NCBI GenBank assembly: GCA_018819065.1
Contig: JAHJQL010000016.1
Coordinates: 1 to 37,710 of the forward strand
Source of the DNA: Nanobdellota archaeon
GTDB lineage: Archaea > Nanobdellota > Nanobdellia > Woesearchaeales > GCA-2686295
Direction: 5' to 3'
DNA: 37,710 nt
The first letter of the stretch is position 1; the number at the start of each line of letters is the position of its first letter. Positions 5,686 through 19,622 of this stretch are shown in pieces. The notes under the pieces are model-generated. The model saw only the letters and a list, made by a program, of their open reading frames with translations, did no database searches and had not been told where the DNA came from. A program made the position numbers and the translations under genes.

Positions 5686-5938
5686 CATTTTAGGAGTAAA
5701 CGAAACAGAGCAAGTAGCTTTTAATGATGAGACACTCTTGCAAATAATACAGAAAAACCACTCGGTCAAAACAAGAGAAACAGTGTATACAAAGTATGTG
5801 TTCTGCATTGATGAGGTCTGCAACGAAGGAGACCATTCATGGGTGTACTATGTCAATGGAAAACCACTTTCTTTGTCAACAGACATCTACAAGCCAAGAG
5901 ACGGCGACGTCGTAGAACTAAGGTATGGGAAGGTTTAA
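5588..5938 (+). CDS. DUF4430 lipoprotein
   Basis: 116 residues from the ATG at 5588 (an ATG at 5570 would add six residues before the signal peptide). MRKIFVASLLISLSLFVSC is a lipoprotein signal with Cys19 as the lipidated residue. The mature part is a single DUF4430 domain: HSWVYYVNGKPL and IYKPRDGDVVELRYGKV match the WxYYVNG and DGDxVxxxY signature positions. It is translationally coupled to the S component through a long out-of-phase overlap. Its last 57 bp recur as a separate fragment at 9031-9087, on the far side of a 3 kb cassette. Confidence 0.75.
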   Translation: MRKIFVASLLISLSLFVSCQQSGSSGSATLKFNILGVNETEQVAFNDETLLQIIQKNHSVKTRETVYTKYVFCIDEVCNEGDHSWVYYVNGKPLSLSTDIYKPRDGDVVELRYGKV

Positions 5939-5940
5939 TT
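5880..5940 (+). repeat. 61 bp direct repeat, copy 1 (3' end of the DUF4430 gene)
   Basis: Matches 9029-9089 with five differences. Four are silent in the reading frame and one changes Arg to Ile. This copy ends the intact lipoprotein gene. The two copies bracket the toxin-antitoxin and radical SAM/ligase genes. Confidence 0.9.
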
Positions 5941-5985
5941 TTTCTATCAATCTTTTTTTAAAAGCAGATTTCTTTTTGGGTTATT

Positions 5986-6318
5986 TCATCTTGTAAATAT
6001 TTCACAGAATTTCTCTTCAATTATCTTTATTTTTTCTTGTTTTAGTTTCCCTGCTTTGTAATCAATTCTGGATTTGTGGACGCTGAATAAGATTGTTGGT
6101 CTAATAAAACTGTCACGCTTCAAAGTGCCTTGCTGAAAATCTTTCTGAGTTATAGGTGTTGTGTCAGGATCAGGTCTTTCTTGGCTTGTAATCTGGCATA
6201 AAATTAGATTTTCATCTGTAGTGTTAGCTGCAACAAGAGCAGGTCTTTTCTTTGATTCATTAGTGTCTAAGAAAGGAAATTGAAAAACTACTATATCTCC
6301 TTTTACAAGTCTTTCCAT
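5986..6318 (-). CDS. MazF/PemK-family toxin
   Basis: 110 residues. The N-terminal GDIVVFQFPFLDTNESKKRP and ALVAAN match the conserved start of MazF/PemK endoribonuclease toxins, which form an SH3-like barrel and cut mRNA. Later segments, RDSFIRPTILFSVHKS and the C-terminal helix, fit the fold. It overlaps the upstream antitoxin gene by 16 bp, the standard type II arrangement, and has its own GAGGATG ribosome binding site. It is the first gene inside the direct-repeat-flanked cassette. Confidence 0.85.
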   Translation of the reverse strand: MERLVKGDIVVFQFPFLDTNESKKRPALVAANTTDENLILCQITSQERPDPDTTPITQKDFQQGTLKRDSFIRPTILFSVHKSRIDYKAGKLKQEKIKIIEEKFCEIFTR

Positions 6319-6560
6319 GCTTCATCCTCCTCTTTTGTATTCCATTCTTTAGCCAATACTTCTTCTGAAACTAATGCAAAAAACAGTTTCTCACTTACCT
6401 TTTTCATTGGCCTTAACTCAACTCTATCAGGATAAACTAAAATGCTTATTTTTGAGCCCTCTTTAAAGCCCGTCATAGTTCTAGCTGTATGAGGTATGCA
6501 AATCTGACCTTTGCTTGTAATTGTTACAGTTTTGATTTCTCTTATTTGGTTTGCTAACAT
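6303..6560 (-). CDS. AbrB/MazE-family antitoxin
   Basis: 85 residues. The N-terminal half, TVTITSKGQICIPHTARTMT followed by GFKEGSKISILVYPDRVELRP, is a swapped-hairpin AbrB DNA-binding domain. The acidic C-terminus (EEVLAKEWNTKEEDEAWKDL) would wrap and block the toxin. It comes first in the operon with an AAGGTGAT site. A TATA-like sequence lies at 6591-6603, and an inverted repeat just upstream of it may be the autoregulatory operator. Confidence 0.85.
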   Translation of the reverse strand: MLANQIREIKTVTITSKGQICIPHTARTMTGFKEGSKISILVYPDRVELRPMKKVSEKLFFALVSEEVLAKEWNTKEEDEAWKDL

Positions 6561-6600
6561 AATATCACCTTACAAGTAAGAAAAGTAAGAAAAATATATA

Positions 6601-6642
6601 AATGTTTTGGTTTTACATAGCAAAACCCAAACCAAAAACATT
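6601..6642. repeat. Inverted repeat upstream of the antitoxin promoter
   Basis: Arms AATGTTTTGGTTT (6601-6613) and AAACCAAAAACATT (6629-6642) pair with one bulge, and a T run follows on the plus strand. The left arm abuts the antitoxin TATA box. It could be the AbrB-type operator or a terminator for plus-strand transcripts. Confidence 0.4.
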
Positions 6643-6837
6643 TTTTTTTGTTGGCGTTACTTCCTCAGCTCTTAGGCTTCGGACTTTTCACTTTTGACCA
6701 AAACAAGATTTTGAGAGTGAAAAGGAATATAACCATATTATACGCAATTCAAAAAATATTTTTCGTTCTCATTCATTTGATAGGCTTTCAAAGAGGAATA
6801 AATTTATTTTTTCTTTATTATTAGGAGGAGGATAATA
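6643..6837. other. AT-rich spacer, no gene seen
   Basis: Nothing convincing on either strand between the inverted repeat and the small ORF. A TATA-like AAATTTATTTTTT lies at about 6799-6811 and GGAGGAGG just before 6838. They look like a promoter and ribosome binding site for the small ORF. Confidence 0.4.
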
Positions 6838-6906
6838 ATGTGTTTTCTCCACTTCGCTACGAAAACAATTTCATTTAGAAAAATTTATAACTTACTGATA
6901 TACTAA
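6838..6906 (+). CDS. Possible 22-residue small ORF upstream of the radical SAM gene
   Basis: ATG to TAA in frame, with an unusually strong GGAGGAGG ribosome binding site and a TATA-like box about 35 bp upstream. The peptide starts MCFLHFATKTISFRK. It ends 7 bp before the radical SAM start. It may be a leader peptide, a true microprotein, or the start of a gene replaced when the cassette was assembled. A TATA box inside it (about 6881-6890) probably drives the next gene without a leader. Confidence 0.35.
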   Translation: MCFLHFATKTISFRKIYNLLIY

Positions 6907-6913
6907 TAATTCT

Positions 6914-8230
6914 ATGAAATCAGATATTAGAAAAATAAAAAACAAACTGACAAAACTATATAAAAACAAAAACTGGCAAGATATTCTAAAAAACCGTCGT
7001 AATGCCGAGGAAGTATTATCAATCTATTTTAATCAAAAAAATAGGGACTTATTGAGGAATAAAAAATTATTTCCTATCAAAATTAATCCGTACTATGCCT
7101 CTTTAGTTAATAAAGTTGATGATGGAATTTGGAGACAAGCCGTCCCCCACTTAGAAGAGTTATATAATCCAAATTATTTAAAAGAAAATTTTTTAAACGA
7201 AAAGAGTGGTTTATTTAATCCCACGCCTTGTCTACTACACCGATACCCTACAAAAGCTCTTATATTTGTCAGCAATACCTGCTTTGGTCATTGCCGACAT
7301 TGTTTTAGAAATTATTCAAAATCTTCAGTTCCTGCTAACTTGAAGAATATTTTCTTAGCAATAGATTATATTGACGAATTTAATAAAGTTGTTGATGGTA
7401 GTAAAAATAGCTTTATCAAATTTAAGAACAAAAACATAAACCGATTTAAAATATCTGATAAATATATATTAAGACATAGCAAAAATGCCAAAGTTTGTAT
7501 TGAGCAAGGAGATTATAGGATACGGGACGTTTTGTTGTCAGGTGGCGACCCGTTAATGTTAGATGATGATGCTTTGGAAAAAATACTTAAAAAGATTTGT
7601 AATGTCAAAACGATTGATATAGTAAGAATAGGTACTCGTTGCCCTGTACTACTTCCTCAAAGAATTACAAAGAGATTAATAAAAATGCTTAGAAAATATT
7701 CAGACAAACCAATTTATATCGTTACACAATTCAACCACCCTGCTGAAATAACGCCTGAATCAATCAAAGCATGTAATCTTTTAAGACATGCAGGTATTTA
7801 TATTAAAAATCAATCGGTATTGCTCAAAGGTGTTAATGACGATATTAAGACTCTGAAAAAACTATTTGAAGGTCTTATAAACATTGGTGTCGACCCATAT
7901 TATGTTTTTCATCCAATGATGGCAAAAGGAACTAACCACTTAAGAATTCCTCTGTGGAAAGGTCTTTTAATTATAAGAAGTTTAAGAGGATATACCTCGG
8001 GTTTTACTATCCCAACATACATGGCCAGTGCACCTCTTGGCAAAGGCAAGGTGCCGCTTCCAGAAGGAATTTTAGAGTATTCTATAAAAGACGGTGAAGC
8101 AGTAATACAAAATTATGAAGGTAATTTTTATAAGTACTATGACCCAATAGGCTATCCGATGCCATCAAAAAAAGAGTTAAAAAAATTATTCTCTTTTGCT
8201 ATTTATAAGAAGATAATCAAGGAGTTGTAA
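6914..8230 (+). CDS. Lysine-2,3-aminomutase-like radical SAM/PLP enzyme
   Basis: 438 residues. The cluster motif CFGHCRHCFR gives Cys123, Cys127 and Cys130 for the 4Fe-4S cluster. Arg132 matches the carboxylate-binding Arg of lysine 2,3-aminomutase. Further family motifs are VLLSGGDPLML (about 206-216), VRIGTRCPVLLPQRIT (237-252) and TQFNHPAEITPES (271-283). SGFTIPTYMASAPLGKGKVP (362-381) has Lys379 at the PLP Schiff-base position. The two Asp residues that hold the substrate amine in lysine aminomutase appear replaced, by Met335 and Ser372. The substrate is therefore probably not free alpha-lysine. An insertion of roughly 25-30 residues lies near 155-190. It is followed 4 bp later by a class II synthetase-like gene, suggesting a made-then-ligated beta-amino acid. 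Confidence 0.85.
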   Translation: MKSDIRKIKNKLTKLYKNKNWQDILKNRRNAEEVLSIYFNQKNRDLLRNKKLFPIKINPYYASLVNKVDDGIWRQAVPHLEELYNPNYLKENFLNEKSGLFNPTPCLLHRYPTKALIFVSNTCFGHCRHCFRNYSKSSVPANLKNIFLAIDYIDEFNKVVDGSKNSFIKFKNKNINRFKISDKYILRHSKNAKVCIEQGDYRIRDVLLSGGDPLMLDDDALEKILKKICNVKTIDIVRIGTRCPVLLPQRITKRLIKMLRKYSDKPIYIVTQFNHPAEITPESIKACNLLRHAGIYIKNQSVLLKGVNDDIKTLKKLFEGLINIGVDPYYVFHPMMAKGTNHLRIPLWKGLLIIRSLRGYTSGFTIPTYMASAPLGKGKVPLPEGILEYSIKDGEAVIQNYEGNFYKYYDPIGYPMPSKKELKKLFSFAIYKKIIKEL

Positions 8231-8234
8231 GATT

Positions 8235-8954
8235 ATGAAAGATAATATTACGAAAATTGCAATAAAAAAGGAGATTGTTTTTCCATTTGCGAAAAATATT
8301 TGGGTTTTTACGGAAAAAGGTGCAAGAGAGATTAAAAAAATCGAAGATTCATTGACAAATATGCTAGAAAAGTATGGTTTTAAAAGATGGATAACCCCCA
8401 TTTTAATACCTACCTCTCTATTCCAAAATCACGGCCCCACTGACATTAAACCATATGAAACTAATAAAGATATGCTTTTAGATCCATTGGCGTTAGGCAT
8501 ATATCATTATTTATCATGTCAAAAAGAAAATAAATTTCCTTTTTATATTTATGAGAATAGAACTGTTTTTAGACAGGAAAAACAGAGTCAAGCATTTTGT
8601 ACTTCAGATGAGTTCAGGAGAATTGATGCTTTTTTCTTTGATTCTAGAGATAGAATAAATACAATCTACAAAATTCTATTAGATAACATTGTAATGTTTT
8701 TGGATAAAAAGCAGTTGAGAGTAAAAGTGAAGACACACAAAAGTAATAAATATCAAAAACACTCTGAAATAATTATTATTACAAGCGATAAAAGAGAGTT
8801 AGAAGTAGTAAATTTAGCTGTTGTGAATAACTTGAATTTAAAAAAATACGAGATTCCTGTTCCGGACAGAATACCAGTTCATAGTGGATATTGTTCAATA
8901 GGCATTAACAGATTGTTTTATTGTTTATTGGATAAAAAATTCTCAAAAGATTAA
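8235..8954 (+). CDS. Stand-alone class II aminoacyl-tRNA-synthetase-like ligase domain
   Basis: 239 residues, about the size of one class II catalytic core, with no anticodon-binding or editing domain. GFKRWITPILIP (48-59) resembles motif 1. ENRTVFRQEKQSQAF (107-121) followed by DEFRRIDAFFF resembles motif 2, with Arg113 for ATP. HSGYCSIGINRLFYCLL (216-232) resembles motif 3, with Arg226. The motif order and spacing recall Ser/Thr/Pro-type synthetases and the amino acid:[carrier protein] ligases. Cys95 and Cys220 could be zinc ligands as in those ligases, which is speculative. The start is 4 bp after the aminomutase stop. The likely role is activation of the aminomutase product and transfer to a tRNA, protein or carrier. 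Confidence 0.75.
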   Translation: MKDNITKIAIKKEIVFPFAKNIWVFTEKGAREIKKIEDSLTNMLEKYGFKRWITPILIPTSLFQNHGPTDIKPYETNKDMLLDPLALGIYHYLSCQKENKFPFYIYENRTVFRQEKQSQAFCTSDEFRRIDAFFFDSRDRINTIYKILLDNIVMFLDKKQLRVKVKTHKSNKYQKHSEIIIITSDKRELEVVNLAVVNNLNLKKYEIPVPDRIPVHSGYCSIGINRLFYCLLDKKFSKD

Positions 8955-9028
8955 TTTATAGTTGTCACAATTTGTTCGTTTTTGTCTGTTCTGGTTACTT
9001 TTTTGACAATGCCTTTTTTCCCTCTCAG
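8951..9028 (-). pseudogene. Possible 3' coding remnant truncated at the repeat
   Basis: The minus strand reads 25 codons ending RGKKGIVKKVTRTDKNEQIV then TTIN and a stop. This looks like a genuine basic C-terminus, and GKKGIVKKV is KOW-like. Upstream of 9028 the frame runs into the antisense of the DUF4430 fragment and the metG promoter, so it cannot be an intact gene. It may be the tail of a gene cut when the cassette formed, or chance. Confidence 0.2.
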
Positions 9029-9089
9029 CAGATATCTACAAGCCAATAGATGGTGACGTCGTAGAACTAAGATATGGGAAGGTTTAATT
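9029..9089 (+). repeat. 61 bp direct repeat, copy 2 (orphan DUF4430 3' fragment)
   Basis: Encodes the last 18 codons of a DUF4430 protein (DIYKPIDGDVVELRYGKV) and its TAA, without the rest of the gene. It matches 5880-5940 with five differences. Four of the five are at silent third positions, so this copy was under protein-level selection after it diverged from copy 1. Confidence 0.9.
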
Positions 9090-12107: not shown

Positions 12108-15100
12108 ATGGAAAACTATTTAAGGGAAAACCTTAATAAGAACTCTTTGAAAGAGGTTTTGGACTGGATGAGACTAATACTTGTAGCGGTAATCTTACTT
12201 CTAGCAATGCCTATGGCTATTGCTATGGACGTTTCAAAAATAGAATTTTTAAGCATCGGAAAACCAATCACCACCATTTCAACAACGAACGAGATACGAT
12301 ATCTTGATTTTAGAATTACAGTTACTGGAGAAGATTTTGAAAGTTTACAAGCAGATATTTCAGAGATACACAGGAATGTTTACTTTGTGCAAACAAACAG
12401 CTACAAAACAAAAGCACCAACTAGCTGCGAAAAACAATCAGACAACACAACATTCATCTGCTACCTGAGAACATTAACACTCTGGCTCTCAAATTCAACA
12501 GTCAAAATTCCAATAACACTCTACAACACGAGCGGAGCAACAACAATTGTCAATAAGACATTCACATTCACAATAGACAATACAAGACCCTCAATTGTTA
12601 GCATAAAAACAGATAAGTGTACACAGAACAATACTTGTTATATTGCATCAGGCAAAGGCACGAGTATAATAATACAGTTTCAAGATTCTATGGCAACTTT
12701 TAATAATGAAAAAGTAAGATATTCTTTCGCTGGAAAGAACAATATTTTAGTCAAGAATTGTACTGGTATGACTTGTTATGGAAACTCAGTGACTACTTGT
12801 GCATCAGGCCAAGAAATTCCAATAAGAATTTCAACGATGGATGCAATGGATGATGCTTTCAATAAAGTTAATAAAACTTTCACATCAAGTTTTATTTGTG
12901 ATAATAGTGCGCCTTCAATAGTTAACTTGACGATAACAACTAATACTTTTGACAAAATAACTTCTGATAGCAACGTTGATGTTAAGATTATTGTCAAGGA
13001 TGATATCTCACCATCTGTGAGTGCAAAAGCCAACCTTTCAGGAGTGGGTATTAACAGTACTTCAACTGCTTCTTGTGATAAGAATAATGAGACGTTCACA
13101 TGTAAGTTTTCATTTAAAGTGAGCTGGCCAGGATATTATACTACTGATTTAAAATTCAGCATATCTGACCTTGCAGGAAATATATTAGCGATAGCGCAGC
13201 CAATTGAAGTCTTGGCTGTTGAAAACCAATCAGTTAACTTATGGAGCGTTGTATCATCAGAAACAAGTCCAAAGCAAGCACCTGCAAAAGAGTTGCAGCA
13301 CTCAACATGGCAGATATACCAATACATAAACATGAGACCATCAGTATCAGGCCAAGAGTTAGTCAGCGTGAAAAAGAAGTCTTGCGACAGAAAGAATAAT
13401 GACACCACAGCAGTTCTCGATGCAACAATCCTTAGCTTTAAAGACAAAATAATTGTGATGTATACAGTTCCAAAAGGAGTGTACAAATACACAACTCTTG
13501 AATATAACTGCACCTTTGAACTTTACACTAAGAAAGGAGAATCATTAACAAAGATTCCAGAATTAGAATCAGTTTATGTCTCATTACAACTACTAAACAC
13601 CGCTGGTTCAGAAGAAAAAGTAGTCCAAGAAATAACAAGGCTAAAAGAAAAGATTGAAGCCAGACAAGAGTCATACAACAGCTGGTTTAACACCCTAAAA
13701 ACAGTGTATACAGTGGCTGGCTATATCTGTCCGATACCAGGTCTTGCATATGGTGTTGGCGCAGTGTTTGGAATATCTCAAACTGTTTCTGCTGTTGGTT
13801 CTATTGCTGCAGATCTAATTCCCGGCGGACAAGGAGTAGCTACATCACTAAAACAAGTCGCAAGCTCATCAGATAAATCAAACAAACAGTTTACTAAGTA
13901 TGGAGAAACTATGACTTCCTATATAGGCACGGCTTGTGGTGTCTTGACATGTAAATCTCCATGGCTTACTAGTTTGGTGAGTGATAATATAAATAAAATT
14001 CCTGCCTTAGGTGACCTTAATAAAATAACTGCTGACTATGCAAAGATGATGGGATTGAACAATTCTTTTGACTTGATGGATGAGTATAAAAGTTTGCCCA
14101 TCGCCATTATAAAAACTTGTCCACCGGCTCTTTTATACCATTATATGAGAGGCACATCAATAGAGTGTAATTATCTTAATTGTATACAATCAAGAGCATC
14201 TCAAGGTTTAAATCTTGCATGGTGTCAATCAATGAAAAACTATGAAGAATGTGTTTACTCAACAGGAAGTGTTTTTCATTCAATGCCTATATTGCCAATT
14301 GTGAATAATGTTGGAAAAATGTTAGAACAAGTAGCAAAAGATCCTTATAGCGCTGGTTTGGCAGCTGCAACAACGTTTTTATGCAAACAAGACGCTCCTT
14401 CTCCAGATTCACGCTGGAACTACATATTTTATGGTGCTTGTTCAGTGCCAAAACTTTTGGAGAACGTGAATAAAGTACTTAATATCGTTGGGTTTAACAA
14501 GCAAATAAAAGAAAGACAATTTGGTCAAAGACTGGAAAACCCAGAGCAAAAAATGTGTCAATCAATTATAGAAAACACTTTAAGACTAACTTACATGAAA
14601 GACTTGGGTGGTGTTGAAATTTCAGGAGCAAACATGTATTGTGACTCGTCTGGTTGCTCATATGAAAACAAAAAATTAAGATATGATGCGGTGCTCGTTC
14701 AAACAATTTACACAGTTCAAACAAAGGATGCACAAAATAATGATAGGTTGGTCATTGTTGAACCAAACTTCGGCCATGATGAATTCTATGATGAAAGCGG
14801 TAACTTGTATTCTAAATATGCATATGAAGGTAGAATATCCAGACATGATATAACTCTTTCTGATCTCGCAAAGATTAATACACTCACGGATGCTGAAATA
14901 GAACAAAAGTTTAAAGTGAAAGCGTCTGTGTTTAGGAATATGGCGGACCAAGTTGAGAATGCTATGAAAATTAAGCGTGGGGATGATATGAAAGAACTAG
15001 GTGTCTCTGATGAGACTATAAAAAATCTTGACAATGCAGATAATAGACTCAAAGAAGCAATAGAAGAAAGTACAAAAATTCAGCATGAGAGAGACAAAAA

Positions 15101-16007
15101 AAATGGTGCACGTGATAGTTCCATTGCTGATTATAATGAAGTGATAGCTGCATTAAATAAACAAATAGAAGACATAGATAAAGAATTGACTACAATTATT
15201 ACTTCTGAAAGAGAGCAGTACTTATTAAAGACTAGAACTGAATCACTTGCGAATATAATTCATTTGAAAAAAGGTAGAGATAATTTGCCAAAAACTTATG
15301 ATGAGGAGGCTGTAAAAGCTGCAGATGAAGAAGTTGAAAAAGCAGAACAAGAATGGAAGTATTATCATAAGAATGTAATGGAAGAGATGCAGTATGGTAA
15401 TCTGGATTCGGAGGGGTTGCTCAAAGGACTTACTCACTTAACATTAGGCTTTGCAAGAACCATGGGTTTGTACAGTGGAGTTTTTGCAAGAACAGGAATC
15501 TTAGATACAACTGAAGTTATATTTAAATTTTTAGAACCAATATATGAGTTTTTTTCAATAGACGCGTTTGTAGAAAAACAGTTGTGTGACAGTAACTTTG
15601 AAGAGGTTGGTGGAAGCTTTGTGTTGACGAGATTAAATTCTGGCGAGATAACTCCTGGCGCTTTTGTGGCCGGAAGTAAGAGTTTGATAAATAAACCAGA
15701 TGGAACATCTGTGAAGAAATACTTTGTTTATGGACAAATCATTAATGCTAAGAAGGATGGATTGAAATTCAAGATATACATGACTGGAGGAGGCACTCAT
15801 GTGATTAACGAAACTGTAACTTTGAATAAAGGTCAAATGTTTCCTTCAAGCGGCTCACCTCTAGACAGGCCTTGGTTTGAAGGAAATCTAACAGGTGATT
15901 ATAATGAGGCTTGCATAGAATTCAAAACGAGTTATTTAAACGAATACTTTGACGTTGCGAACGTTGATGATAACAAGATTTGCGCTCCATTGGTGGTATT
16001 ATCATGA
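12108..16007 (+). CDS. Very large exported protein with Ig-like domains and a coiled coil
   Basis: 1299 residues, or 1279 if it starts at the ATG at 12168. A signal/anchor helix lies at about 22-39 (LILVAVILLLAMPMAIA). Three beta-rich, Ig-like repeats follow, rich in Thr/Asn and paired cysteines (about 40-370), for example CTQNNTCYIASGKGTSIIIQ. A hydrophobic region near 525-585 (AGYICPIPGLAYGVGAVFGI) may be membrane-embedded. Cysteine-rich helical parts follow, then a charged coiled coil (about 965-1090), another hydrophobic patch and a C-terminal beta domain. No family is recognised. It overlaps the next gene by ATGA, so the two are co-translated and probably form one surface structure. A TATA-like TATATTTT lies about 28 bp upstream of 12108. 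Confidence 0.7.
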   Translation: MENYLRENLNKNSLKEVLDWMRLILVAVILLLAMPMAIAMDVSKIEFLSIGKPITTISTTNEIRYLDFRITVTGEDFESLQADISEIHRNVYFVQTNSYKTKAPTSCEKQSDNTTFICYLRTLTLWLSNSTVKIPITLYNTSGATTIVNKTFTFTIDNTRPSIVSIKTDKCTQNNTCYIASGKGTSIIIQFQDSMATFNNEKVRYSFAGKNNILVKNCTGMTCYGNSVTTCASGQEIPIRISTMDAMDDAFNKVNKTFTSSFICDNSAPSIVNLTITTNTFDKITSDSNVDVKIIVKDDISPSVSAKANLSGVGINSTSTASCDKNNETFTCKFSFKVSWPGYYTTDLKFSISDLAGNILAIAQPIEVLAVENQSVNLWSVVSSETSPKQAPAKELQHSTWQIYQYINMRPSVSGQELVSVKKKSCDRKNNDTTAVLDATILSFKDKIIVMYTVPKGVYKYTTLEYNCTFELYTKKGESLTKIPELESVYVSLQLLNTAGSEEKVVQEITRLKEKIEARQESYNSWFNTLKTVYTVAGYICPIPGLAYGVGAVFGISQTVSAVGSIAADLIPGGQGVATSLKQVASSSDKSNKQFTKYGETMTSYIGTACGVLTCKSPWLTSLVSDNINKIPALGDLNKITADYAKMMGLNNSFDLMDEYKSLPIAIIKTCPPALLYHYMRGTSIECNYLNCIQSRASQGLNLAWCQSMKNYEECVYSTGSVFHSMPILPIVNNVGKMLEQVAKDPYSAGLAAATTFLCKQDAPSPDSRWNYIFYGACSVPKLLENVNKVLNIVGFNKQIKERQFGQRLENPEQKMCQSIIENTLRLTYMKDLGGVEISGANMYCDSSGCSYENKKLRYDAVLVQTIYTVQTKDAQNNDRLVIVEPNFGHDEFYDESGNLYSKYAYEGRISRHDITLSDLAKINTLTDAEIEQKFKVKASVFRNMADQVENAMKIKRGDDMKELGVSDETIKNLDNADNRLKEAIEESTKIQHERDKKNGARDSSIADYNEVIAALNKQIEDIDKELTTIITSEREQYLLKTRTESLANIIHLKKGRDNLPKTYDEEAVKAADEEVEKAEQEWKYYHKNVMEEMQYGNLDSEGLLKGLTHLTLGFARTMGLYSGVFARTGILDTTEVIFKFLEPIYEFFSIDAFVEKQLCDSNFEEVGGSFVLTRLNSGEITPGAFVAGSKSLINKPDGTSVKKYFVYGQIINAKKDGLKFKIYMTGGGTHVINETVTLNKGQMFPSSGSPLDRPWFEGNLTGDYNEACIEFKTSYLNEYFDVANVDDNKICAPLVVLS

Positions 16008-18199
16008 TGAAAAAAGGACAGATAACTATGTTTGTTGTGATGGGAATCGTATTAGTAATACTTGTAGGTTTAGTTGTTTATATCAAGTCTAGCATAGTTA
16101 CAACAGAGCCTCCTGAAACAGATATAACTGAGACTTACTCTAATGAAATAGCATCTATAAAACTTTACACTGAAGATTGTATGTACAAACTTGGAAAGGA
16201 AGCATTCATAGAACTTGGACAAAGAGGTGGTTATCTTGACACTTCATTCATCCACCCTTATGGTTTGACAGCGACAGAGAGTGATGGTTTTGAAATATTT
16301 CCAGACTCAGGAATTGTTATTCCTTTCTGGTATTATATGAAATCCAAAAATGATTGTACTGGCTGCGTTTTTGACAGCCAGAAACCTTTCTTGGCAGGAC
16401 GCACAAACAAATCTGTGACTGGTCAAGTAATATCTTATATAGAAAATAATATTGATTCTTGCCTTAAAGGCTATTCATTCATGAAAACAGAAGGATTTGA
16501 AGTTGTTGAAGGTCCTCCAAAAGTTGATATTAAACTTGGAGGCGACACAATAATAGAAATGAAGAAATCAGTAGTTATAGAAAAAGATGGCAAAACTTAT
16601 TCTATAAACTCTTTTGTTACAAGTCTAGGTCTTGATTTTAGTAGCCTGTATAGTTTTGCAACTGAAATAGTTGAACAACTAATATATCAAGGTTTCTTTG
16701 AAAATCAGGTTTTAAACGATATAACTATCTATAATTTTGGTTATGATGAAGTATCAAAACCAATCCCTCCAATACAAGGAGGAAAAGAGACTTACTTCAG
16801 CTATCCAGGCATGTATATGAAATCCATTGAAAATGTGAATAACATACTAGCAAATGAAGTCATACCTAACACAGTTTCTGGCGTCAAGGTTTCAGGTACA
16901 AGAAACGGGGTTATTTCAATGGTTATATCTGGTAAGAATGAGACTGAACTTTTCTTTGAGGAAGCTTTTCAGAATCAAAAGTTATTACAAATTTTTAATT
17001 TTGACCGTGTCGATAGAAACCAATACTCTGTTTTCTTCACTTATCTTCCTATATGGAAACCCTATCTTCGAATCAATAATAAAGCAGGATTTTTAAATGT
17101 TCAACCGGCAAAAATATTTCCTCCAATATCCTTACCTTTTGACCTTGGAAGCATATATCAGATGAATTATAATTTCTATTACGACTTAAGTTTTCCTGTC
17201 ATGATAAGGCTGTATGATGAAGAAGCGTTCAATGGTGAAGGGTACAATTTCATCTTTGGGTTTGAGTCAAACCTAAGAAAAAATACTCCTTTTAATAAAT
17301 CTGGCACAGCACCTACATTAAATGTGCAGGGCAATCAAAACGATGTATTCTGTGATTACAGAAATAGGAATTCAGGCAACATAAGTATAATTGTGAAAAA
17401 CTTCGCTACTAAACAACCGGTGAAAGGATTAGAAATAAGTTATACTTGTGGTTCATTAACATGCTTAATAGGTGCTACTGGTATGTATGATACTCCAGGG
17501 TTAGTAACAACTCTTCCTACATGTTTAGATGGTGTTATTAGTTTTTCAGATAACAATTATTATATCGATAAACCAACTTATCTGACCTCTGTTAAGGGAA
17601 AAAATCAAGCTGTTGAAATTGTTGCTTATCCGAAGAAGAAGTTAAATATTACAATACTATCAAATCCTGTGAGGAAGAATTATGATTTCTCAATACCAAA
17701 AATATTCTGGGAACCAGTGTTTTTAGAATTAACTCCTTCAATAGATGAAACTTTCTTGATAAGAGTTGAAAGGATATCTAATGATTCAAGCATTAATGAG
17801 TTTAAAAGTTTTGCTTCTTTTAATTCTGAAACTCCAGCAGCCATAGAGTTTATTCCTGGAAACTATTCAATAGAGGTCATCTCTTTATTATATCTTGGTG
17901 AGAACCGCTCAGTTGATAGGATAGTAATTCCTGAGGATGAACGATGCTACAGCGGAGAATGCTTCACGCTTCCAGAAGTCTCATTCAACGCCACATTCCC
18001 AAGCGGAGGAGTTGTTCTTAATAATGAAACCGGTTACTTTGAGATAGGCGAAGATATCTATAACAAATCAAATATAACATTTAAAGTTTTCACTATAGAC
18101 CATGCGGGGATGAAAGTCATGGAAGACTTAGAAGAGATGAATAAAATAGAATACTACTCAATGAATTATAAGTCCAACATACTTCCAGTGCTGGAATGA
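16004..18199 (+). CDS. Large surface protein with class III (pilin-like) signal
   Basis: 731 residues. The N-terminus MMKKGQITMFVVMGIVLVIL has a KKG-Q junction followed by a long hydrophobic helix. This is the layout of class III signal peptides processed by archaeal prepilin peptidase, and it recurs in large DPANN surface proteins. The ectodomain is beta-rich with cysteine pairs (CTGC, then CGSLTCLIG, then CYSGEC). Its ORF could be read from 15980, but the ATG at 16004 overlaps the stop of the preceding gene (ATGA) and gives the signal at the very N-terminus. It is probably a partner of the 1299-residue protein in attachment or a surface filament; this is inference. Confidence 0.7.
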   Translation: MMKKGQITMFVVMGIVLVILVGLVVYIKSSIVTTEPPETDITETYSNEIASIKLYTEDCMYKLGKEAFIELGQRGGYLDTSFIHPYGLTATESDGFEIFPDSGIVIPFWYYMKSKNDCTGCVFDSQKPFLAGRTNKSVTGQVISYIENNIDSCLKGYSFMKTEGFEVVEGPPKVDIKLGGDTIIEMKKSVVIEKDGKTYSINSFVTSLGLDFSSLYSFATEIVEQLIYQGFFENQVLNDITIYNFGYDEVSKPIPPIQGGKETYFSYPGMYMKSIENVNNILANEVIPNTVSGVKVSGTRNGVISMVISGKNETELFFEEAFQNQKLLQIFNFDRVDRNQYSVFFTYLPIWKPYLRINNKAGFLNVQPAKIFPPISLPFDLGSIYQMNYNFYYDLSFPVMIRLYDEEAFNGEGYNFIFGFESNLRKNTPFNKSGTAPTLNVQGNQNDVFCDYRNRNSGNISIIVKNFATKQPVKGLEISYTCGSLTCLIGATGMYDTPGLVTTLPTCLDGVISFSDNNYYIDKPTYLTSVKGKNQAVEIVAYPKKKLNITILSNPVRKNYDFSIPKIFWEPVFLELTPSIDETFLIRVERISNDSSINEFKSFASFNSETPAAIEFIPGNYSIEVISLLYLGENRSVDRIVIPEDERCYSGECFTLPEVSFNATFPSGGVVLNNETGYFEIGEDIYNKSNITFKVFTIDHAGMKVMEDLEEMNKIEYYSMNYKSNILPVLE

Positions 18200-18719: not shown

Positions 18720-19622
18720 TTATTTCTTCTCTTCTTTTGGCTTGTAGTCTAGTCCGTGTTTTTCTAAGTCTTTTTTTAGTATTATTGTATTTCTTATTTC
18801 GATCAGCTCATCTAGGTTTTGTGTGTAGAATTTTGTTGCGTTGTGTATATACATTCCTTGCTTGTCTAGTTCTTCTTTTAAGTAATCCATTATTAATAGT
18901 GGGTGTATGTTTCTTAAGAGTTTTTCTGCTTCTTTTTTTGTATAGTTTTTTTGAAGTATTTCTGTGTAAACCTCTTTTTTTGTGATTAAATCTCTTTTTA
19001 GTTTTCCAATGTTATAATTCTTGTCTTTAAGTGCGGTATCTATTATTTTTTTAAGTGATTGTTTGTCTTGTTCGTTTTCTTGTCCTGATATTGTTAGTTC
19101 GCTATCATAATATTGCGTTAAGATATCATATTGTTCTTCTTCATCTTTTATCTCTCGGATGATTTCATTAATTTTTGGTCTTGCAATTTTAAAATATTCT
19201 TTTAGTCCTTCGACCACTACTTTTTTTATTTCTTTTTTCTTCAGTTTTGATTCATCGTTGTTTGCAAATATTTGTTTAAAGTTGTCAATCATGACTTTAT
19301 AAAGTAAATCTTGCGCAGGTGCAAATATATTGTTAAATAAATAACTTTGTGTATCTTCATCTGAGCATTTATCATAGTGCTCAAATGCTTTTTCAACATT
19401 TTCTCTGGTTTCTTCTGAATATTTGTTTTTGTCATCAATAGATTTATTCAAGGATTGAACTTCTTTTTGTTCAATTTTTGTTTCTTTCTCTTTATAGTCG
19501 GAATTAGATTTGTTTGTTAATTCTTCATTCTCTTCATAATCAGTTTTTTTTCCTGATAGTTGTTCTATAGATGTCTTCGCAATTTTTCTTATTAATTCAT
19601 CAAGATTCTTTTCTTCTCTCAT
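18720..19622 (-). CDS. Charged helical protein of unknown function
   Basis: 300 residues, highly charged (Lys/Glu rich) and predicted almost entirely helical, with no signal peptide or membrane segment. Residues 7-18 (LDELIRKIAKTS) resemble LDAMIRKIAKAP in the unrelated-looking gene at 32184, suggesting a short shared docking or sorting motif. A low-complexity charged region (about 20-75) separates this from a helical body. No family is recognised. The 3' flank carries motif copy A. Confidence 0.6.
   Translation of the reverse strand: MREEKNLDELIRKIAKTSIEQLSGKKTDYEENEELTNKSNSDYKEKETKIEQKEVQSLNKSIDDKNKYSEETRENVEKAFEHYDKCSDEDTQSYLFNNIFAPAQDLLYKVMIDNFKQIFANNDESKLKKKEIKKVVVEGLKEYFKIARPKINEIIREIKDEEEQYDILTQYYDSELTISGQENEQDKQSLKKIIDTALKDKNYNIGKLKRDLITKKEVYTEILQKNYTKKEAEKLLRNIHPLLIMDYLKEELDKQGMYIHNATKFYTQNLDELIEIRNTIILKKDLEKHGLDYKPKEEKK

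Follow-up and report, generated by a model that had tools for sequence, protein, structure and literature searches.

In bacteria, EpmB, an aminomutase-like enzyme, and EpmA, a LysRS-like ligase, carry out the β-lysylation of EF-P. In lysine 2,3-aminomutase (LAM), the 2a5h structure contains two aspartates, Asp293 and Asp330, which bind the side-chain amine of lysine. In the structures of type-2 (methanogen) SerRS (SerRS2) and of amino acid:carrier-protein ligases (aaCPLs), a zinc ion grips the α-amino group of the substrate. The aa:CP ligases are zinc-dependent (PMC9437257). The two genes described here resemble the EpmB and EpmA pair in combining an aminomutase-type enzyme with a class II core that has no tRNA-binding domain. 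They differ in that the ligase is not LysRS-like, the lysine pocket is lost, the genes are adjacent and the archaeal host has deoxyhypusine synthase. The pair is plausibly a variant of the EpmA/EpmB logic that is a member of neither family.

The window is the whole stretch of 37,710 nucleotides that was analysed, from a host genome of 1.52 Mb in 93 contigs (~95% complete) that looks like one of a DPANN-type archaeal order with small genomes. Positions refer to the window and to its + strand unless stated otherwise. The first gene (6914..8230) encodes a KamA-family radical SAM/PLP aminomutase-like protein of 438 aa (P0001), as assigned from its translation, the family model, alignment and an AF2 model. 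The second (8235..8954) encodes a stand-alone class II synthetase-like core of 239 aa (P0002), as assigned from its translation, PF00587, and profile and pairwise alignments. Both reading frames are intact, and the coordinates and the 4-bp stop-to-start gap of the preliminary description were confirmed on the sequence. A putative TATA-like box is located 25 bp 5' of the aminomutase ATG (6884..6889), and the aminomutase gene likely has a leaderless start. The Shine-Dalgarno AAGGAG of the ligase, read from the sequence, lies inside the 3' end of the aminomutase gene (8219..8224). Because the TATA-like box precedes the first gene and the ligase Shine-Dalgarno lies within it, the two genes are likely co-transcribed as a two-gene operon.

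The pair is located in an AT-rich, 3.1-kb insert (interval 5941-9016) between two copies of a 73-bp direct repeat. The left copy (5868..5940), at the 3' end of a DUF4430 gene, matches the right copy at 88%, and the right copy forms the insert boundary (9017..9089; repeat alignment). PemK/MazF-like toxin and MazE-like antitoxin genes are also inside the insert (5986..6560, - strand) and are thought to stand outside the pathway proposed below. The GC3 of the insert genes is 0.24-0.26; the host genes on the flanks, from 3005 up to MetRS, have 0.32-0.45. In the congener G002, where the flanks are syntenic, the interval is instead occupied by a gene of the metallo-beta-lactamase fold and a small gene, so that it looks like a variable site carrying foreign cargo. 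The preliminary description had proposed a search for the same pair in other genomes with conserved spacing and had counted its absence beforehand as a refuting sign; no second genome with the pair was found in 99 relatives, 353 genomes of the order and a class sample of 378. Likewise, capped searches and a motif scan beyond the order, covering plasmids, phages, viral contigs and GTDB genomes, gave no orthologous pair; the query of the motif scan was P0001 with artificial rows fixing chosen motifs, and the scan would miss orthologues lacking both motifs. The low GC3, the repeat bounds, the neighbouring toxin-antitoxin pair, the single genome and the long branch of the aminomutase would fit non-functional passengers, that is, decaying genes of a mobile insert; AT-richness with such a branch can be seen in decaying or foreign genes alike. 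However, both reading frames are complete and retain every catalytic motif, their Shine-Dalgarno and TATA-like signals are good, and third positions are almost as rich in A and T in the host genes at 12108-18199 and 18720-19622, which makes decay quite unlikely. The ORFs at 12108-16007 (1299 aa) and 15980-18199 (739 aa) are very large and have no Pfam match at 1e-5.

The aminomutase matches the lysine 2,3-aminomutase 2a5h with an E value of 1.4e-73. Of the family models tried, the only one whose cut-off it clears is that of the broad KamA subfamily, TIGR00238 (246 bits against 199.2). Its scores are below the equivalog cut-offs for AblA (315.9 vs. 525.4), glutamate and arginine 2,3-aminomutases (300/650 and 274/600) and EpmB (186/369). 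The lysine 2,3-aminomutase-like cluster, family motifs and PLP lysine noted at the outset are all kept: the CxxxCxxC motif (C123, C127, C130; 7280..7303; translation and alignment), Arg132, the counterpart of the carboxylate Arg R134 of LAM, and the PLP lysine Lys379 (LAM K337; 8048..8050; alignment). Together with the family model, these residues place the protein in the KamA superfamily. The AF2 model (pLDDT 82.5, pTM 0.87) has the LAM fold, and its best PDB match is 2a5h (E 3.7e-28; 34% identity in the structural alignment). The differences from 2a5h are ~45 extra residues at 155-201 (7376..7516), a segment of low model confidence that LAMs do not have, and the substrate pocket.

In the pocket, alignment confirmed the reported replacement of both lysine-binding aspartates and hence a changed substrate site, with Met335 (7916..7918) at the position of LAM Asp293 and Ser372 (8027..8029) at that of Asp330. 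A phylum sample searched with the aminomutase alone contained a KamA protein in 24 of 371 genomes, and the pocket codes of the other 23 proteins are D/D (21/23) and R/M (2/23). Nearly all of 53 viral KamA loci are D/D, the exceptions being R/I, D/Y and one truncated locus, and none is M/S. The best 80 of 317 GTDB KamA relatives, retrieved with P0001-specific motifs, have R/S, D/D, E/D, R/A or K/S and again no M/S. Since M/S is absent from the phylum (23), viral (53) and GTDB (80) sets, the M/S pocket is, as judged from these sequences, beyond chance. As a source of Ser372, the R/S KamA clade was ruled out, its pocket sequence being different throughout. In the tree the aminomutase is a solitary long branch; the AU test for its placement inside the local LAM clade gave p 0.33, so it may belong to that clade.

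The ligase matches PF00587 with an E value of 1e-5 and 26.2 bits, under the gathering cut-off of 29.3. It contains class II motif 1, motif 2 (R113, E115; region FRQE ... DEFRRID, 8568..8627) and motif 3 (R226; SGYCSIGINR, 8883..8912) and no other domain, consistent with the earlier account of a catalytic core lacking a tRNA-anticodon domain. The only match is of the PF00587 type (G, H, P, S, T), with none to LysRS or EpmA, so the claim that the ligase is unlike LysRS held; its description as Ser/Thr/Pro- or carrier-ligase-like was right and is better specified as type-2 SerRS/aa:CP-ligase-like. The canonical PF00587-class synthetases seem to be present as separate genes in the host genome, so the ligase would be extra to the canonical set. 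Its AF2 model has a pLDDT of 31.

An order-wide search (353 genomes) retrieved a full-length relative of the ligase in genome G247 (BLASTP 42 bits), which in turn led to three further relatives with 52-55% identity to the G247 protein. The four proteins (genomes G247, G208, G007 and G082, all of the same order) are stand-alone type-2-SerRS/aaCPL-like cores of 269-332 aa; the G247 protein scores 127 bits with NF002120, 5e-21 with PDB 3w3s and 4e-10 with the aaCPL model. The ligase is very divergent from the four (identity 21-24%). Pairwise Smith-Waterman z values to them are 8-15, a range that includes the 11.6 scored by one SerRS2, and the profile of the four scores it at 26.7 bits, a value that some ordinary class II synthetases reach as well. 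D83-P84-L85, N225-R226 and Y229 of the ligase are common to the four relatives, and SerRS2 differs at these positions save for the Arg. These comparisons point weakly to the four stand-alone SerRS2/aaCPL-like cores as the closest full-length relatives.

The best NCBIfam match of the ligase is PylS_Cterm (21.3 bits, E 1.4e-4; equivalog cut-off 178 bits), and its z value to M. mazei PylRS is 8.9, compared with 2.8 for M. alvus PylRS, ≤6.2 for HisRS and ~4 for ThrRS and ProRS. A PylRS-like system charging a tRNA with an amino acid new to translation would agree with the PylS_Cterm match and the M. mazei value. However, in 39 of 42 other genomes class II synthetases also match this model, reaching 36 bits at most and never passing the cut-off, so the match is non-specific. 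The low M. alvus value, the lack of the N-terminal helices or C-terminal tail, the absence of a tRNA near the pair in ARAGORN and Rfam searches and the absence of a suppressor-type anticodon among those read in the host tRNA candidates, an incomplete set, also speak against such a system and make it extremely improbable. A PylRS identity was dropped, as the model is non-specific and the full-length alignment is better with the stand-alone SerRS2-like cores. The sole tRNA of the window is an intron-containing tRNA-Ser (1341-1457, - strand), whose gene the default tRNA scan missed.

The zinc ligands were mapped by alignment to M. barkeri SerRS (2cim, with a 20-residue tag offset). The ligands C306, E355 and C461 fall on Cys, Glu and Cys in the G247 protein, and this set is kept in all four relatives. 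At the same positions the ligase carries Leu87 (8493..8495; profile alignment), Asp131, which ends the motif 2 region, and Tyr219 of motif 3, and it lacks the Cys, Glu, Cys set of a type-2 SerRS/aa:CP ligase. R113, E115, E190 and R226 are intact, being invariant across the four relatives too, and because of this adenylation by the ligase is plausible. Without the zinc site, the ligase may anchor the amino group in another way or may have lost its function.

The ligase shares with the aaCPL/type-2 SerRS core the motif 2/3 layout, and this is its closest class II branch by way of the four relatives; like aaCPL, it has no tRNA-binding domain. It differs in its replaced zinc ligands, its length of 239 aa and the absence of a carrier protein: no PP-binding carrier domain was found in the ~95% complete host genome (PF00550, E 0.1), whereas 11 of 14 control genomes, M. 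acetivorans included, were positive. An ordinary aa:carrier-protein-type ligase for an α-amino acid, beside an aminomutase serving another purpose, would agree with the SerRS2/aaCPL-like relatives and their zinc ligands. The missing carrier domain, the lost zinc ligands and the tight coupling of the two genes make this distinctly improbable. The search for a small acceptor co-occurring with the pair, suggested in the preliminary description, returned no acceptor protein, carrier protein or nearby tRNA.

Deoxyhypusine synthase is present in the host genome and in all relatives sampled. Replacement of EF-P/aIF5A by the pair is excluded on this ground, in agreement with the earlier view that the pair is not such a substitute. 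The same observation bears on an archaeal EpmA/EpmB equivalent that would place β-lysine on a translation factor. Such a system would follow the same logic of a KamA-family enzyme with a class II ligase lacking a tRNA-binding domain, but both lysine-side-chain aspartates are replaced, the EpmB and AblA model scores are far under their cut-offs and the ligase is unlike LysRS, so it is very improbable.

We tentatively favour a horizontally acquired two-step cassette, in which a non-lysine β-amino acid would be made, then adenylated and passed to an acceptor; we hold this at somewhat less than an even chance. In the first step, the KamA-type enzyme, with [4Fe-4S]/SAM and PLP, would shift the amino group from C2 to C3. 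Because the α-carboxylate Arg is kept and the Asp pair for the side-chain amine is lost, the substrate would be a non-lysine α-amino acid, probably with an uncharged side chain. In the second step, the SerRS2/aaCPL-like core would bind the β-amino acid, make the aminoacyl-adenylate, as its intact class II motifs suggest, and hand the aminoacyl group to the acceptor, likelier a protein or small-molecule amine than a tRNA or the thiol of a carrier protein. The loss of the zinc site fits a β substrate, because zinc grips an α-amino group and the amino group of this substrate would be on C3. From this single pair we infer that the two enzymes form one pathway; the strongest argument is the coincidence of an amino group that would be shifted by the first enzyme with the loss of the α-amino anchor in the second. 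Both enzymes would then appear to have lost a matching substrate grip. If the proposal is true, the locus provides a testable enzyme pair for a β-amino acid other than β-lysine and a naturally occurring class II core adapted to the adenylation of β-amino acids, useful for β-peptide and genetic-code work. It is doubtful that this is the first natural archaeal β-aminoacylation cassette, in which a non-lysine β-amino acid, made by an aminomutase of new specificity and activated by a zinc-less core, would be put on protein or RNA.

Similar arrangements occur elsewhere in the order. In G247, G208 and G007 the gene of the ligase relative is directly followed by a radical SAM gene, which in G247, where the model was run, is TIGR04100-like (105 bits). 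A TrmB-type regulator, whose identity was tested in G247, is on the other side of the ligase gene; in G082 the regulator is beside the ligase relative and there is no adjacent radical SAM gene. These SerRS2/aaCPL-like ligase modules, with zinc ligands intact, are located at L240:6050-7550, L271:2016-3664, L272:4957-6584 and L273:5534-6532. The L239/L240, L271 and L272 modules share with the present pair a stand-alone class II core adjoining a radical SAM gene and, in their ligases, the D83-P84-L85, N225-R226 and Y229 positions. They differ in their non-aminomutase radical SAM protein, retained zinc ligands and adjacent TrmB-type regulator. A literature search for TIGR04100 or ligase-radical SAM pairs found nothing relevant, and the stand-alone SerRS2-like ligase with a TIGR04100-type radical SAM protein is, on these gene neighbourhoods, apparently an undescribed module of this order.

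In addition, five LAMs of the order (L013, L024, L025, L026 and L028) are fused to a D-Ala-D-Ala-ligase-type ATP-grasp domain in proteins of ~700 aa, as checked with Pfam on L013 and L026 and by similarity on the other three. Given the ligase-radical SAM adjacency in three of four genomes and these five fusions, radical enzymes are repeatedly linked with amino-acid activation in this lineage; stand-alone SerRS2-like ligases with radical SAM neighbours, together with the LAM-ATP-grasp fusions, would be a wider, apparently undescribed habit of the order. The fusions, the insert-like setting and the lack of a macromolecular acceptor gene nearby also agree with a small-molecule pathway, in which a β-aminoacyl amide or dipeptide (an osmolyte or natural product) would be made as by the LAM-ATP-grasp fusions with another ligase. 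This is unlikely, as the insert has no further tailoring or transport gene and the usual acceptor of a class II core is a macromolecule. For the separate β-amino-acid system first suggested, and for the two-step cassette favoured here, the changed pocket, the stand-alone non-LysRS core, the zinc loss and the recurrent pairing stand in support, while the expected second genome and acceptor did not appear. Among other KamA proteins, a K/S pocket occurs in an Actinomycetota MAG and E/D pockets in proteobacterial and deltaproteobacterial MAGs (L104:3555-4865; L107, L108, L109, L112), and these proteins may be additional, as yet unassigned aminomutases.
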